DNA of 64,000 nt from Nonlabens sp. YIK11 (GTDB lineage Bacteria; Bacteroidota; Bacteroidia; Flavobacteriales; Flavobacteriaceae). The translations under genes were made by a program, and so were the position numbers. Positions 1 to 62,840 of the stretch are shown here, one piece after another (the first letter of the stretch is position 1; every line of letters starts with the position of its first letter). The stretch is taken from contig NZ_LBMJ01000001.1 of NCBI RefSeq assembly GCF_001413925.1, positions 1,068,501-1,132,500 on the forward strand, read 5' to 3'. The notes beneath the pieces were generated by a model. It was not told the origin of the DNA and made no database searches. It saw nothing but the letters and a program-made list of their open reading frames with translations.

Positions 1-306
1 ATCCATAACCGATTTGATGGGATAATGGTCCACCACACCTTTGATGACAAATAAATTATAGGCGTTGATTAATAACGCTTTACTTTCATTGTTGGTCAAT
101 TGATCCAGCTCGATCTTTTCCAATGATTTTAAGGCCAAATCCAGATTCTGCGGATTCTTTTTGATCGCCGCATAGTTCACATTGCCATTGGCTACCTGGT
201 TATTGAGCAGTTCTTTTGTGGCTGTGGAGAAGGTGGATAGTTGCGCTTTCGCGAAAGCGAAACTCCCCAAAATCATCAATACCAATATTCTAATTCTTAA
301 ACTCAT
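1..306 (-). CDS. DUF547 domain protein (partial, N-terminal 102 residues)
   Basis: I translated the complement of the first 306 bases. It starts with ATG at 306 and runs off the left edge without a stop. The N-terminus is a signal peptide ending in the residues GSFAFAKAQ, with a likely signal peptidase I cut after AKA. The exported part contains NYAAIKKNPQNLDLALKSL, then LLINAYNLFVIKGVVDHYP, which matches the conserved asparagine-tyrosine-asparagine core of DUF547. The function of this family is not established; members are exported and common in marine bacteria. The palindromic repeat at 244-259 encodes the end of the signal peptide. The C-terminal half lies outside the window. Confidence 0.85.
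   Translation of the reverse strand, partial: MSLRIRILVLMILGSFAFAKAQLSTFSTATKELLNNQVANGNVNYAAIKKNPQNLDLALKSLEKIELDQLTNNESKALLINAYNLFVIKGVVDHYPIKSVMD
244..259. repeat. dispersed palindrome copy 1 (in DUF547 gene)
   Basis: Perfect 16-bp palindrome CGCTTTCGCGAAAGCG. It is read as AFAKA at the signal peptide end of the DUF547 protein. Confidence 0.9.
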
Positions 307-445
307 AAATTGATTGTTACACGCTGTTGCGCCTAAGTAATTTACAACAATCAAGCCATTTACTACGACGCTAAAATTCAGGAAAAATGAACCCGAATCA
401 CGGAAGTATGTAACATGACTTCCGGCTAGTTTCATCGTGATTTAT

Positions 446-463
446 TGTAGCTTTAATGCTACA
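446..463. promoter_or_regulatory. small inverted repeat upstream of the redox pair
   Basis: TGTAGC and GCTACA are separated by TTTAAT, forming a perfect 6-bp hairpin about 26 nt before the ATG of the FAD oxidoreductase. It could be a protein-binding site or a leader hairpin. The overlap with a weak TAGCTTTA -7-like element (448-455) is suggestive only. The remaining 307-489 spacer shows nothing else I can name. Confidence 0.35.
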
Positions 464-489
464 TTGTTGAATCAAAACCAAAGTAAGGT

Positions 490-1791
490 ATGGAGCACGT
501 TGTTATCATAGGAAATGGGATCGCAGGAATCACGCTGGCTAGACATGTGCGCAAGTTTTCTGACAAACGCATCACGGTCATATCTGCCGAGACGGATTAC
601 TTCTTCTCACGTACGGCCTTGATGTACGTGTACATGGGACACATGAAGTTTGAGCACACGCAGCCGTATGAGAACTGGTTCTGGGAAAAGAATAGAATCG
701 AACTCAAGCGTGATTATGTAAAACACGTTCATACCGATACTAAAATATTGTCGCTGGAATCTGGCGAGCAGTTTCCTTATGAAAAACTGGTCATCGCAAC
801 GGGTAGCGTTCCTAATAAATTTGGTTGGAAAGGTGAAGATTTGCATGGCGTTCAAGGCCTTGTTACTCGCAATGATCTGGAACTACTGGAAGTAAATGCA
901 CCCAATAACGATGTATGTAAAAGGGCCGTCATCATAGGTGGTGGACTCATAGGCGTGGAGCTTGCAGAAATGCTTCATACCAGGAAAATTCCAGTGACTT
1001 TCCTAGTAAGGGAAAAGGCTTTCTGGAGTGGTGTTCTACCTATGCCAGATGCTACCATGATCTCTGATCACATTTTGTCACACCATATTGATCTGCGCCA
1101 TGAAGAGGAACTGGATGAGATCATAGGCGATGAAAATGGTCGCGTGAAAGCCATAAAGACAAAAACAGGAAAAACTATCGACTGTAACCTAGTGGGTCTT
1201 TGTGCTGGTGTGAAGCCACAAATAGGTTTTCTAGCTTCCAGCGGCATTGACACAGATAGAGGTGTCTTGGTGGATCGCTTACTACAAACCAATGTTCCCG
1301 ATGTGTACGCGATAGGTGATTGTGCCCAGCAACGCGAGCCGGTAGGTGAGCGCAAACCGGTAGAAGCGGTATGGTACACCGGTCGCATGATGGGAGAAAC
1401 CCTGGCTCAAACCATATGCGGCGATCCTACACCATGGAATCCCGGACACTGGTTCAATAGTGCCAAGTTTATGGATATTGAATATCAAACCTACGGCTGG
1501 GTATGGAGCAAACCAAAGGAAGGTCACGAGCACTACCACTGGCAGGACGAAAAAAATGAACGCGCCATCACCATAGAATATGATGTAGCTTCAAGAGTAT
1601 TTATCGGGATCAACACCTTTGGCATTAGAATGAAGCACGAGGTTTTTGACCAGTGGCTTACAGAGAAACAGTCTGTAGATCACGTGGTAAAGCATCTATC
1701 TAAATCCTGCTTCAATCCAGAGTTCTATAAAAAACCATTTGAAACCATCAAAAAGGATTTTGCAACATCTCAAAAAACGGTAGAAGCTTAG
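490..1791 (+). CDS. FAD/NAD(P)-dependent oxidoreductase, NirB-like N-terminal type
   Basis: 433 residues. Two dinucleotide-binding motifs are visible: GNGIAG at 8-13 (FAD) and GGGLIG at 150-155 (NAD(P)H), with the ATGS motif at 103-106 and the FAD-binding GDC at 276-278. This is the pyridine nucleotide-disulphide oxidoreductase class II arrangement also seen in nitrite reductase NirB and rubredoxin reductases. There is no redox CxxC between the motifs. A C-terminal segment of about 120 residues, rich in Trp, His and Lys, follows the FAD domain. It lies 82 nt upstream of a membrane Fe-S protein in the same direction, so I infer that it feeds electrons from NAD(P)H to that protein. Substrate unknown. 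Confidence 0.8.
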   Translation: MEHVVIIGNGIAGITLARHVRKFSDKRITVISAETDYFFSRTALMYVYMGHMKFEHTQPYENWFWEKNRIELKRDYVKHVHTDTKILSLESGEQFPYEKLVIATGSVPNKFGWKGEDLHGVQGLVTRNDLELLEVNAPNNDVCKRAVIIGGGLIGVELAEMLHTRKIPVTFLVREKAFWSGVLPMPDATMISDHILSHHIDLRHEEELDEIIGDENGRVKAIKTKTGKTIDCNLVGLCAGVKPQIGFLASSGIDTDRGVLVDRLLQTNVPDVYAIGDCAQQREPVGERKPVEAVWYTGRMMGETLAQTICGDPTPWNPGHWFNSAKFMDIEYQTYGWVWSKPKEGHEHYHWQDEKNERAITIEYDVASRVFIGINTFGIRMKHEVFDQWLTEKQSVDHVVKHLSKSCFNPEFYKKPFETIKKDFATSQKTVEA

Positions 1792-1873
1792 ATCACAATA
1801 ACGGTGAAGCTGTCACTGCCTTTTAGCATAAAACCATTGGTGTTTTACTAATCACACTTTATAAATATCATTT

Positions 1874-60923: not shown

Positions 60924-61072
60924 TTGACAGCACAAAAAGAACAGGTTTGTTTCCTTTAGGGGAATCAGATCGGTAAGAATAAGAATAATATAGTGTAAAC
61001 AGACAAGAACGCCAATTGCTAGTAGTATATAGGTTATGGGATTCTCGCAAGAGATCTTTTTAACAAGATTCT

Positions 61073-62594
61073 ACGATGAAGAGTTTGATCCTGGCTCAGG
61101 ATGAACGCTAGCGGCAGGCCTAACACATGCAAGTCGAGGGGCAGCACGTCTTCGGATGGTGGCGACCGGCGCACGGGTGCGTAACGCGTATACAATCTAC
61201 CTATCACTGAGGAATAGCCCGAAGAAATTTGGATTAACGCCTCATGGTACCAGCTAATCGCATGATTTACTGGTTAAAGGTTACGGTGATAGATGAGTAT
61301 GCGTCCTATTAGCTAGATGGAGAGGTAACGGCTCCCCATGGCTACGATAGGTAGGGGTCCTGAGAGGGAGATCCCCCACACTGGTACTGAGACACGGACC
61401 AGACTCCTACGGGAGGCAGCAGTGAGGAATATTGGACAATGGGCGAGAGCCTGATCCAGCCATGCCGCGTGCAGGAAGACGGCCCTATGGGTTGTAAACT
61501 GCTTTTGTACGGGAAGAAACCCCTCTACGTGTAGAGGGCTGACGGTACCGTAAGAATAAGCACCGGCTAACTCCGTGCCAGCAGCCGCGGTAATACGGAG
61601 GGTGCAAGCGTTATCCGGAATCATTGGGTTTAAAGGGTCCGTAGGCGGGTGTTTAAGTCAGTGGTGAAATGCAGGGGCTCAACTCCGGCACTGCCATTGA
61701 TACTGAACATCTTGAATTATTGTGAAGTGGCTAGAATATGTAGTGTAGCGGTGAAATGCTTAGATATTACATAGAATACCGATTGCGAAGGCAGGTCACT
61801 AACAATACATTGACGCTGAGGGACGAAAGCGTGGGTAGCGAACAGGATTAGATACCCTGGTAGTCCACGCCGTAAACGATGGTTACTAGCTGTCCGGTAC
61901 GATTGAGTACTGGGTGGCCAAGCGAAAGTGATAAGTAACCCACCTGGGGAGTACGTTCGCAAGAATGAAACTCAAAGGAATTGACGGGGGCCCGCACAAG
62001 CGGTGGAGCATGTGGTTTAATTCGATGATACGCGAGGAACCTTACCAGGGCTTAAATGCAGACTGACAGGCTTGGAAACAGGCTTTTCTTCGGACAGTTT
62101 GCAAGGTGCTGCATGGTTGTCGTCAGCTCGTGCCGTGAGGTGTCAGGTTAAGTCCTATAACGAGCGCAACCCCTATTGCTAGTTGCCAGCGAGTCATGTC
62201 GGGGACTCTAGCGAGACTGCCGGTGCAAACCGTGAGGAAGGTGGGGATGACGTCAAATCATCACGGCCCTTACGTCCTGGGCCACACACGTGCTACAATG
62301 GTAGGGACAGAGAGCAGCCACCTCGTGAGAGGGAGCGAATCTATAAACCCTATCACAGTTCGGATCGTAGTCTGCAACTCGACTACGTGAAGCTGGAATC
62401 GCTAGTAATCGCATATCAGCCATGATGCGGTGAATACGTTCCCGGGCCTTGTACACACCGCCCGTCAAGCCATGGAAGCTGGGGGTACCTGAAGTCGGTG
62501 ACCGCAAGGAGCTGCCTAGGGTAAAACCGGTAACTGGGGCTAAGTCGTAACAAGGTAGCCGTACCGGAAGGTGCGGCTGGAACACCTCCTTTCT
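61073..62594 (+). rRNA. rrs: 16S ribosomal RNA
   Basis: Complete 16S, about 1,522 nt. The start region GAAGAGTTTGATCCTGGCTC, the 530 loop GTGCCAGCAGCCGCGGTAA, the 790 region ATTAGATACCCTGGTAGTCC, the GCACAAGCGGTGGAGCATG block, and the 3' end GTACCGGAAGGTGCGGCTGG followed by AACACCTCCTTTCT are all present. The AACACC in the last helix (GGATCACC in E. coli) is a Bacteroidota mark. Ends are set by alignment to E. coli from memory and may be off by a few bases. Confidence 0.98.
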
Positions 62595-62743
62595 GGAGTT
62601 CCTGAAATAATGGAACCTAAAAATGAGAGTTCCATGGCCTACTACATGCAAATGGCGTGTTTGTTTATATTATTATCTATAACTGTCAATCTTATTAATA
62701 AAAATGTCGAAAGACGAGTGATGTGCCTTTCGGGGTTCGTTAC

Positions 62744-62817
62744 AGTCTCATAGCTCAGCTGGTTAGAGCGCTACACTGATAATGTAGAGGTCGGCAGTTC
62801 GAGTCTGCCTGAGACTA
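62744..62817 (+). tRNA. tRNA-Ile (GAT)
   Basis: 74 nt. Acceptor AGTCTCA/TGAGACT, D arm with AGCTCAGCTGGTTAGAGC, anticodon stem CTACA/TGTAG with loop CTGATAA (anticodon GAT), T arm GGCAGTTCGAGTCTGCC. In the 16S-23S spacer. Confidence 0.97.
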
Positions 62818-62825
62818 CTTTTACG

Positions 62826-62840
62826 CTTTCGCGGAAGCCT
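62826..62840. repeat. dispersed palindrome, degenerate copy (in rRNA spacer)
   Basis: CGCTTTCGCGGAAGC, one mismatch from the core, between tRNA-Ile and tRNA-Ala. Confidence 0.75.

Follow-up and report, generated by a model that had tools for sequence, protein, structure and literature searches.

Why should a flavobacterial chromosome carry the same perfect palindrome again and again, at intervals of a few kilobases? The question is raised by a 64,000-nucleotide stretch of Nonlabens sp. YIK11 (positions 1,068,501-1,132,500 of contig C1 of genome G000; hereafter the window), in which the 14-bp palindrome GCTTTCGCGAAAGC is found in 15 exact copies, with 0.00 expected by chance (0 in 100 dinucleotide shuffles). 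An original prediction had reported the same 15 copies, had likened the palindrome to the cyanobacterial HIP1 and had considered a role in methylation, nucleoid binding, DNA uptake or repair. In this work we find that the palindrome is a real and strong feature of the genome, which is extended by its flanks to a symmetric footprint and is evenly spaced along the chromosome. With a probability of roughly 0.45, we take palindrome and footprint to be a self-DNA uptake-type signal, which would have been spread by biased uptake.

Abundance, exactness and footprint

The genome holding the window (3.26 Mb) contains 752 exact copies of GCTTTCGCGAAAGC, on average 0.23 per kb, against 0 of the reversed-word control, and the excess claimed from the window thereby holds genome-wide. 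In a 464-kb sample of this genome, twelve palindromes built from a permuted half-site gave 0 exact copies each. The same sample holds 126 exact copies of the word, 14 with one mismatch and 1 with two, so that exact copies outnumber one-off copies; seven of the 14 one-mismatch copies carry a T-to-C change at the fifth base. Both one-mismatch copies proposed for the window were found (32315-32328 and 62825-62838) and represent one variant on opposite strands. The two copies described as interrupted were recovered as well, with a second palindrome of 20-21 bp inside, which brings the window to 19 sites. Among the best literature matches, judged mainly by title and the opening of the abstract, no report of GCTTTCGCGAAAGC was found.

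In G000 the base that adjoins the core 5' of it, read on each strand, is a C in 96% of cases. Further out, the 5' flanks in the Nonlabens genomes contain little C and much G and T, individual positions having preferences of their own, to about 32 bases from the core, and the information is near zero beyond. Palindrome and flanks together make up a footprint of about 78 bp with two-fold symmetry. The flank pattern is alike at genic and intergenic sites of G000, and is common to G014 and G004 (together with G001, other Nonlabens genomes) and to G227, where it is weaker beyond about 20 bases (G227 and G211 are one genome each of two other genera). Around 748 CGCG positions of G000 taken as a control, no flank signal was seen. 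Lineages differ in the second outer base (G000 has T, G004 either C or T, and G227 A), which may be regarded as a 'dialect'; this base is also the only one of 12 flank positions to show left-right covariation (0.55 vs 0.45 from composition, p = 0.0022, 126 sites). The arms, originally described as always symmetric, are so in most copies, those at 8315, 25712 and 57583 lacking a symmetric base beyond the 14-mer.

Spacing of the sites along the chromosome

Two non-overlapping samples of G000 comprise 221 gaps between neighbouring sites, with a mean of 3,677 bp and a coefficient of variation (CV) of 0.485; 5 of the 221 are shorter than 1 kb. In the 464-kb sample the CV is 0.51, compared with 0.975 ± 0.082 for random placement and 0.998 ± 0.081 for a null with the same gene share, and 3 of 122 gaps fall below 1 kb where 29 would be expected. 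For the first 100 G000 sites the CV is 0.45. The absence of clustering noted in the original prediction pointed in the right direction and understated what is a strongly even spacing. Adjacent gaps are anticorrelated (r = -0.21, permutation p = 0.0002). Imperfect copies keep their distance too: none of 15 variant or interrupted copies lies within 1 kb of an exact site, as compared with 47% of random points, and each of seven further one-off copies is separated from exact sites by more than 1 kb. A fixed lattice or period was considered and rejected, Rayleigh scans from 2 to 9 kb giving maxima of 0.25 and 0.30, close to the chance values of 0.23 and 0.30.

Gaps under 1 kb numbered 0 of 46 in G004 (33.5% G+C; 9.7 expected), 2 of 53 in G227 (10.8 expected; CV 0.71 vs 0.98 ± 0.12) and 0 of 38 in G211 (6.2 expected). 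Chi of E. coli, the word GCTGGTGG, served as control: 45 sites in 200 kb had a CV of 1.24, with 13 of 42 gaps under 1 kb vs 10.5 expected. Since Chi is uneven at a similar density, the evenness of the palindrome is no artefact of the method.

All of the 28 sampled 20-kb stretches of G000, which make up about 30% of the chromosome, hold 4-8 sites each. The samples contain 0.27 sites per kb and the genome 0.23, so that sparser parts of the chromosome must exist elsewhere. In G001, two stretches of 20-30 kb, at about 298-328 kb and 332-353 kb of contig C4, are free of sites in an otherwise evenly marked chromosome; they are perhaps acquired islands.

The spacing was also illustrated by toy models with hand-chosen parameters. 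Suppressing gain near existing sites gave CVs of 0.54-0.65, and making loss spacing-dependent as well gave 0.39-0.44; random gain combined with selection against long gaps resulted in 0.74-0.79 and left 26% of gaps shorter than 1 kb. The full anticorrelation of adjacent gaps came out of none of these models.

The evenness of the spacing and the anticorrelation between adjacent gaps might also reflect a site for a chromosome-structuring protein (a nucleoid anchor, a loop or domain spacer, an SMC-type loader or a topoisomerase), present once per few kilobases and kept spaced by selection. The symmetric footprint of about 78 bp, ending about 32 bp outside the core, would suit such a protein, as would the 4-8 sites in every sampled stretch and the lack of the site on the plasmid described below. 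Noc-binding sites, parS and matS are likewise sites of chromosomal proteins, about 14-16 bp long and with two-fold symmetry; they occur in tens of copies in particular regions, and the sites of Noc, MatP and SlmA are biased towards the replication origin or terminus. The Nonlabens word differs from them in its 752 copies, its presence in every sampled stretch and its lack of origin or terminus bias in the sampled third or so of the chromosome. Two thirds of its sites are genic and carry an amino-acid cost, although intergenic room is expected in nearly every interval, and no candidate protein was found. In addition, 126 exact against 14 one-off copies would be unusual for regulatory-type sites (PMC1626085; here and below, papers are cited for the portions of their text that were available). 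We regard a chromosome-structuring function as rather unlikely.

Position, origin and retention of the sites

The 19 sites of the window are as follows, with the strand given as "." for all of them:

245..258, exact 14-mer; perfect palindrome 244-259; within an open reading frame (ORF) truncated by the window start
3831..3844, exact site; palindrome 3828-3847; intergenic
8315..8328, exact site; within ORF 7942-9732; symmetry ends at the 14-mer
13423..13436, exact site; palindrome 13420-13439; intergenic
21231..21244, exact site; palindrome 21228-21247; intergenic
25712..25725, exact site; within ORF 25531-26172; symmetry ends at the 14-mer
29429..29442, exact site; 22-bp palindrome 29425-29446; intergenic
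32315..32328, variant site GCTTCCGCGAAAGC; the G014 orthologue is an exact site
36035..36048, exact site; between two genes of the same strand
38738..38771, interrupted site; mini-palindrome of CCTGCCTGCCGGCAGGCAGG type inside
40522..40535, exact site; intergenic; in 7 aligned Nonlabens loci (some from one genome), 5 exact and 2 one-off
44533..44546, exact site; intergenic; ten other loci have a site near 43978-43991 instead
47337..47350, exact site; within ORF 46896-47612
51325..51361, interrupted site; mini-palindrome inside
53389..53402, exact site; within the phosphoglycerate mutase gene 52188-53720; reads A-F-A-K-A
55182..55195, exact site; within ORF 54980-56374
57583..57596, exact site; within ORF 56395-57657; symmetry ends at the 14-mer
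59648..59661, exact site; 22-bp palindrome 59644-59665; close to the end of ORF 58430-59710
62825..62838, variant site GCTTTCGCGGAAGC; intergenic; exact in G014

The starts first listed for these copies are those of the longer palindromes; one of them, 8325, was off by ten and should read 8315.

According to our own gene caller (461 genes in the 464-kb sample), 82 of the 126 sites (65%) lie in predicted genes and 44 (35%) in the 9-12% of the sequence that is non-coding. Genic sites are distributed over the three frames as 51, 20 and 11, the favoured frame reading A-F-A-K. The intergenic share might suggest transcription terminators or other RNA hairpins, an explanation that we find scarcely credible given that 65% of the sites are genic, that the spacing is even and that the flank 3' of the hairpin is rich in A and C, with no T run.

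A palindrome with so strong a consensus could also be a mobile element (a repetitive extragenic palindrome, a miniature inverted-repeat transposable element or similar) that spreads via insertion, and the original prediction had invoked copying of the palindrome as a unit. Comparison of orthologous genes does not bear this out, most of them aligning without the insertion of a unit. In phosphoglycerate mutase the site is present in 7 of 7 Nonlabens-type sequences and in 0 of 13 others aligned (chosen from 74), 12 of which align gap-free at this place, the Saprospira sequence having a two-residue gap just after it. In the GH92 gene, where ten other loci hold a site near 43978, the window has an ordinary 14-base stretch. 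Eight site-bearing proteins were further compared with those of non-carriers (20 alignments, 7 of them gapped): five are ungapped within 5 residues of the site and two have a one-residue gap, whereas the protein with the site at 25712 shows two 3-residue gaps and is the one of the eight that is compatible with insertion. The ungapped alignments indicate that most sites arise by substitution. Besides, the flank footprint is a composition bias and no fixed element, the sites are evenly spaced and 65% of them are genic. Spread as a mobile palindrome is, in our view, very improbable.

Insertion into the sites does take place, by the second palindrome. This mini-palindrome of CCTGCCTGCCGGCAGGCAGG type, 20-21 bp in length, sits within 14-mer sites: a search with a nine-base seed gave nine places in 624 kb of G000, eight of them inside sites and the ninth with one changed arm base, and four places in 280 kb of G001, all inside sites. 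Two of 54 aligned sites are intact in G000 and interrupted by it in G001. In G227, 0 of 5 mini-palindromes passed an automatic test for both arms, and by eye most lie between pieces of the site. The 4 mini-palindromes of G211 lie outside the site; in its locus L292, CCTGCC mini-palindromes at 6850-6869 and 6962-6981 stand beside a cluster of four tRNA genes (7051-7758), not inside a site.

Sites are retained at orthologous places. In the alignment with G001 (~95% identity), 50 of 54 sites are exact, where 30 would be expected under neutrality, 2 are one-off and 2 interrupted; in that with G014 (78% identity), 8 of 9 are exact, with 0.4 expected. Spacing is also preserved as sites turn over: a site near window position 43,980 is present in ten loci and one near 44,400-44,540 in another ten (L034 being aligned only from 44,565 on), and no locus has both; some of these loci come from one genome twice or from near relatives and are therefore not independent evidence.

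Carrier genomes and a possible role in DNA uptake

All 23 Nonlabens genomes searched contain 288-857 exact copies, the lowest number belonging to a 78% complete assembly. Among 397 genomes of the family (237 genera), at least one copy occurs in 80, and hundreds of copies were found only in the four sampled Nonlabens, in G211 (408) and in G227 (857), i.e. in 3 of the 237 sampled genera; the next-highest counts were 19, 17 and 16. None of 296 genomes of the phylum had more than 4 copies, except G000. Decayed relics in near relatives were looked for and rejected: a genus designated g76 has 16-19 exact copies and 26-28 at no more than one mismatch, hence no flood of decayed copies. Among the best 80 named phosphoglycerate mutase loci, the gene of the window is 87-88% identical to those of an uncultured Nonlabens and N. 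antarcticus, 77-79% identical to four loci (three labelled Nonlabens and one 'Flavobacteria bacterium BBFL7') and at most 68% identical to the remainder; the site is present in all six near loci (L029-L034), and neither it nor its inner 10-mer occurs in the other 74. A single origin of the carriers was considered and set aside: an rpoB tree built from 30 genomes pairs G211 with G227 (100/99) and unites six Nonlabens in one clade (100/100), and gives no supported join between the two groups.

The second contig of G000 is a 29-kb plasmid (Rep3, Mob_Pre, AbiEii and TIR proteins), and this one plasmid carries 0 sites, with about 7 expected at the genome mean. Copies are found outside the carriers in islands of other genera. 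Ten of 16 stretches (L009-L014, L016-L018 and L020, from eight genomes) share the blocks of one island type. Seven of the encoded proteins could be assigned; they comprise RND pumps, outer-membrane efflux proteins, a CusB-like adaptor, P-type ATPases (one of which has metal-binding domains) and a member of the Fur family. Despite sequence differences of up to about 30%, these islands have the site at the same places. Some copies have decayed, frequently through C-to-T or G-to-A changes, and a C-poor flank was also seen at 36 sites in islands of other genera. On our reading of these sequences, the islands may have spent time in carrier genomes, i.e. been transferred out of carriers. In several non-carrier Flavobacteriaceae such heavy-metal efflux islands have sites 933 bp apart within one efflux gene. 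Scattered copies also occur in at least 120 stretches of viral contigs, with the C-poor flank at 18 of 85 sites of the 80 listed. Site and flank together are seen in L132, L163, L171, L180, L181, L203, L204 and L205, L180 having three sites at 3.1-3.6 kb spacing. Site-bearing viral contigs may be phages or proviruses of carriers.

We compared the word with known repeated signals. Like the uptake signal sequence (USS) of H. influenzae (AAGTGCGGT), it has a strong consensus, more regular spacing than random, an origin by substitution, weaker conserved flanks and variants between clades (PMC1626085), and the share of sites in genes is 65% in both, among 956 USS in H. influenzae (PMC1626085). For USS and the DNA uptake sequence (DUS) of Neisseria, the same source describes more perfect than one-off copies, a preference for non-coding DNA and an origin other than by insertion, and for the Haemophilus USS flanks with AT-rich motifs. 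The Haemophilus USS, which belongs to the Pasteurellaceae, is, however, oriented, asymmetric and present about once per kb, and its uptake has been shown experimentally; the Nonlabens word is a palindrome at 0.23 per kb in Bacteroidota. The Neisseria DUS (GCCGTCTGAA) is rare in acquired DNA and its spacing is tied to the length of recombination tracts, and many new DUS seem to arise by recombination (PMC2397512). It has dialects (PMC3630211), which resemble the lineage variants at the second outer base in Nonlabens; it is oriented and has no conserved flanks, and its receptor is ComP (PMC3868556). Most of the genomic hallmarks given for USS and DUS in PMC1626085 thus appear to apply to the Nonlabens word, palindromy and density excepted, and DNA uptake, among the functions first listed, would fit most of the testable traits.

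The likeness to HIP1 (the highly iterated palindrome, GCGATCGC) of cyanobacteria proposed in the original prediction stands insofar as both words are hyper-abundant palindromes. A 2018 study reportedly found periodic HIP1 spacing on a scale of 10-90 kb. HIP1 has 8 bp, occurs about once per kb and accompanies methyltransferases for inner words (PMC4390886), whereas the Nonlabens word has 14-16 bp and a 78-bp footprint. A methyltransferase of PF00145 was found in 8 of 12 carriers (not in G000, G014, G021 and G211) and one of PF01555 in 9 of 12 (not in G000, G010 and G227), so that no methyltransferase is common to the carriers in these two families (PF02086, type I and other families not searched); within these two families, the HIP model lacks its enzyme here. 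The same result bears on a site of recombination or repair, either a bidirectional Chi-like stop or a strand marker for mismatch repair as proposed for HIP1. In its favour are a density close to that of E. coli Chi, 5' flanks that on both strands contain little C and much G and T, and the published HIP model (PMC4390886). Chi of E. coli is, in contrast, oriented, 8 nt long and uneven, and the footprint is far longer than Chi or a methylation site; we consider this explanation improbable. The readings as insertion element, terminator, Chi-type or HIP-type site are disfavoured.

If the site is a self-DNA signal, the flavobacterial transformation machinery would have a DNA-binding part, dimeric or with two-fold symmetry, that prefers fragments with one good site, and incoming site-bearing tracts would replace homologous site-less ones. 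Biased uptake and recombination could then let sites accumulate in all places where the gene tolerates them. As one site per fragment would suffice, a new site near an old one would gain nothing, and the sites would become spaced out. Uptake as the driving process, and a protein of the transformation machinery as the reader of the site, are what we infer from these traits. In Riemerella anatipestifer, transformation requires ComEC, DprA, ComF and RecA, and in addition proteins mainly of Flavobacteriaceae, partly without relatives in known machineries, among them the products of an adjacent gene pair (PMC8459023). ComEC was found in 15 of 15 genomes searched and DUF5689 in 30 of 30. At 9 of 9 loci the DUF5689 gene adjoins a gene of one shared family, the G000 member having a carboxypeptidase-regulatory domain, and next to the pair lies a third shared family, the G000 member of which is a predicted nuclease (PF19580). 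By domain and order, the DUF5689 gene and its carboxypeptidase-regulatory neighbour match the R. anatipestifer pair (PMC8459023). In G000 (L468:6807-13384) they are flanked by two predicted Exo_endo_phos_3 nucleases. DUF5689 scores are lower in carriers and some neighbours, which may be plain descent. No candidate reader protein for the site was found.

Several points weigh against DNA uptake. Non-carriers have ComEC and DUF5689 just as carriers do, and the transformation genes therefore do not explain which genomes have the site. In the literature used, which was not searched specifically for competence, competence of Nonlabens is not shown. Known USS and DUS are oriented and occur about once per kb, vs 0.23 per kb for the palindrome. 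In G211 the flank footprint is weak, confined to the vicinity of the core and nearly absent overall, and evenness is not clear by CV (0.83 vs 0.97 ± 0.15). The toy model of uptake misses the anticorrelation of neighbouring gaps (near 0 vs -0.21 observed), and the version with spacing-dependent loss gives -0.10 to +0.04. Uptake does not predict the targeted 20-bp insert in some sites, and a chromosomal protein requiring spacing would give much of the same pattern. On genomic traits alone, the word should not, in our opinion, be classed as an uptake signal.

Taking both outcomes together, we see slightly better than even odds that the word is a two-fold symmetric self-DNA signal, with a 78-bp footprint in Nonlabens and a self-spacing of ~3.7 kb, shared by Nonlabens and two other genera, to our knowledge the first uptake-type signal in Bacteroidota, and read by a receptor of a transformation machinery with parts unlike known ones, or, failing that, belongs to a new distance-measuring system of the chromosome. 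In 2006, uptake signals were described for two proteobacterial families and as not known in other transformable bacteria (PMC1626085, available portion). R. columbina, of the same order as Nonlabens, prefers its own DNA; the available part of the study leaves the motif open and, for words counted up to 10 bp, lists only A/T-rich ones (PMC7965970). A word of 14 bp that is present in hundreds of exact, evenly spaced copies provides a concrete substrate for this question of self-preference in flavobacteria. If its role is not in uptake, a symmetric, evenly spaced site that all 23 of the Nonlabens genomes searched have in common would be a new handle on how a chromosome measures distance.

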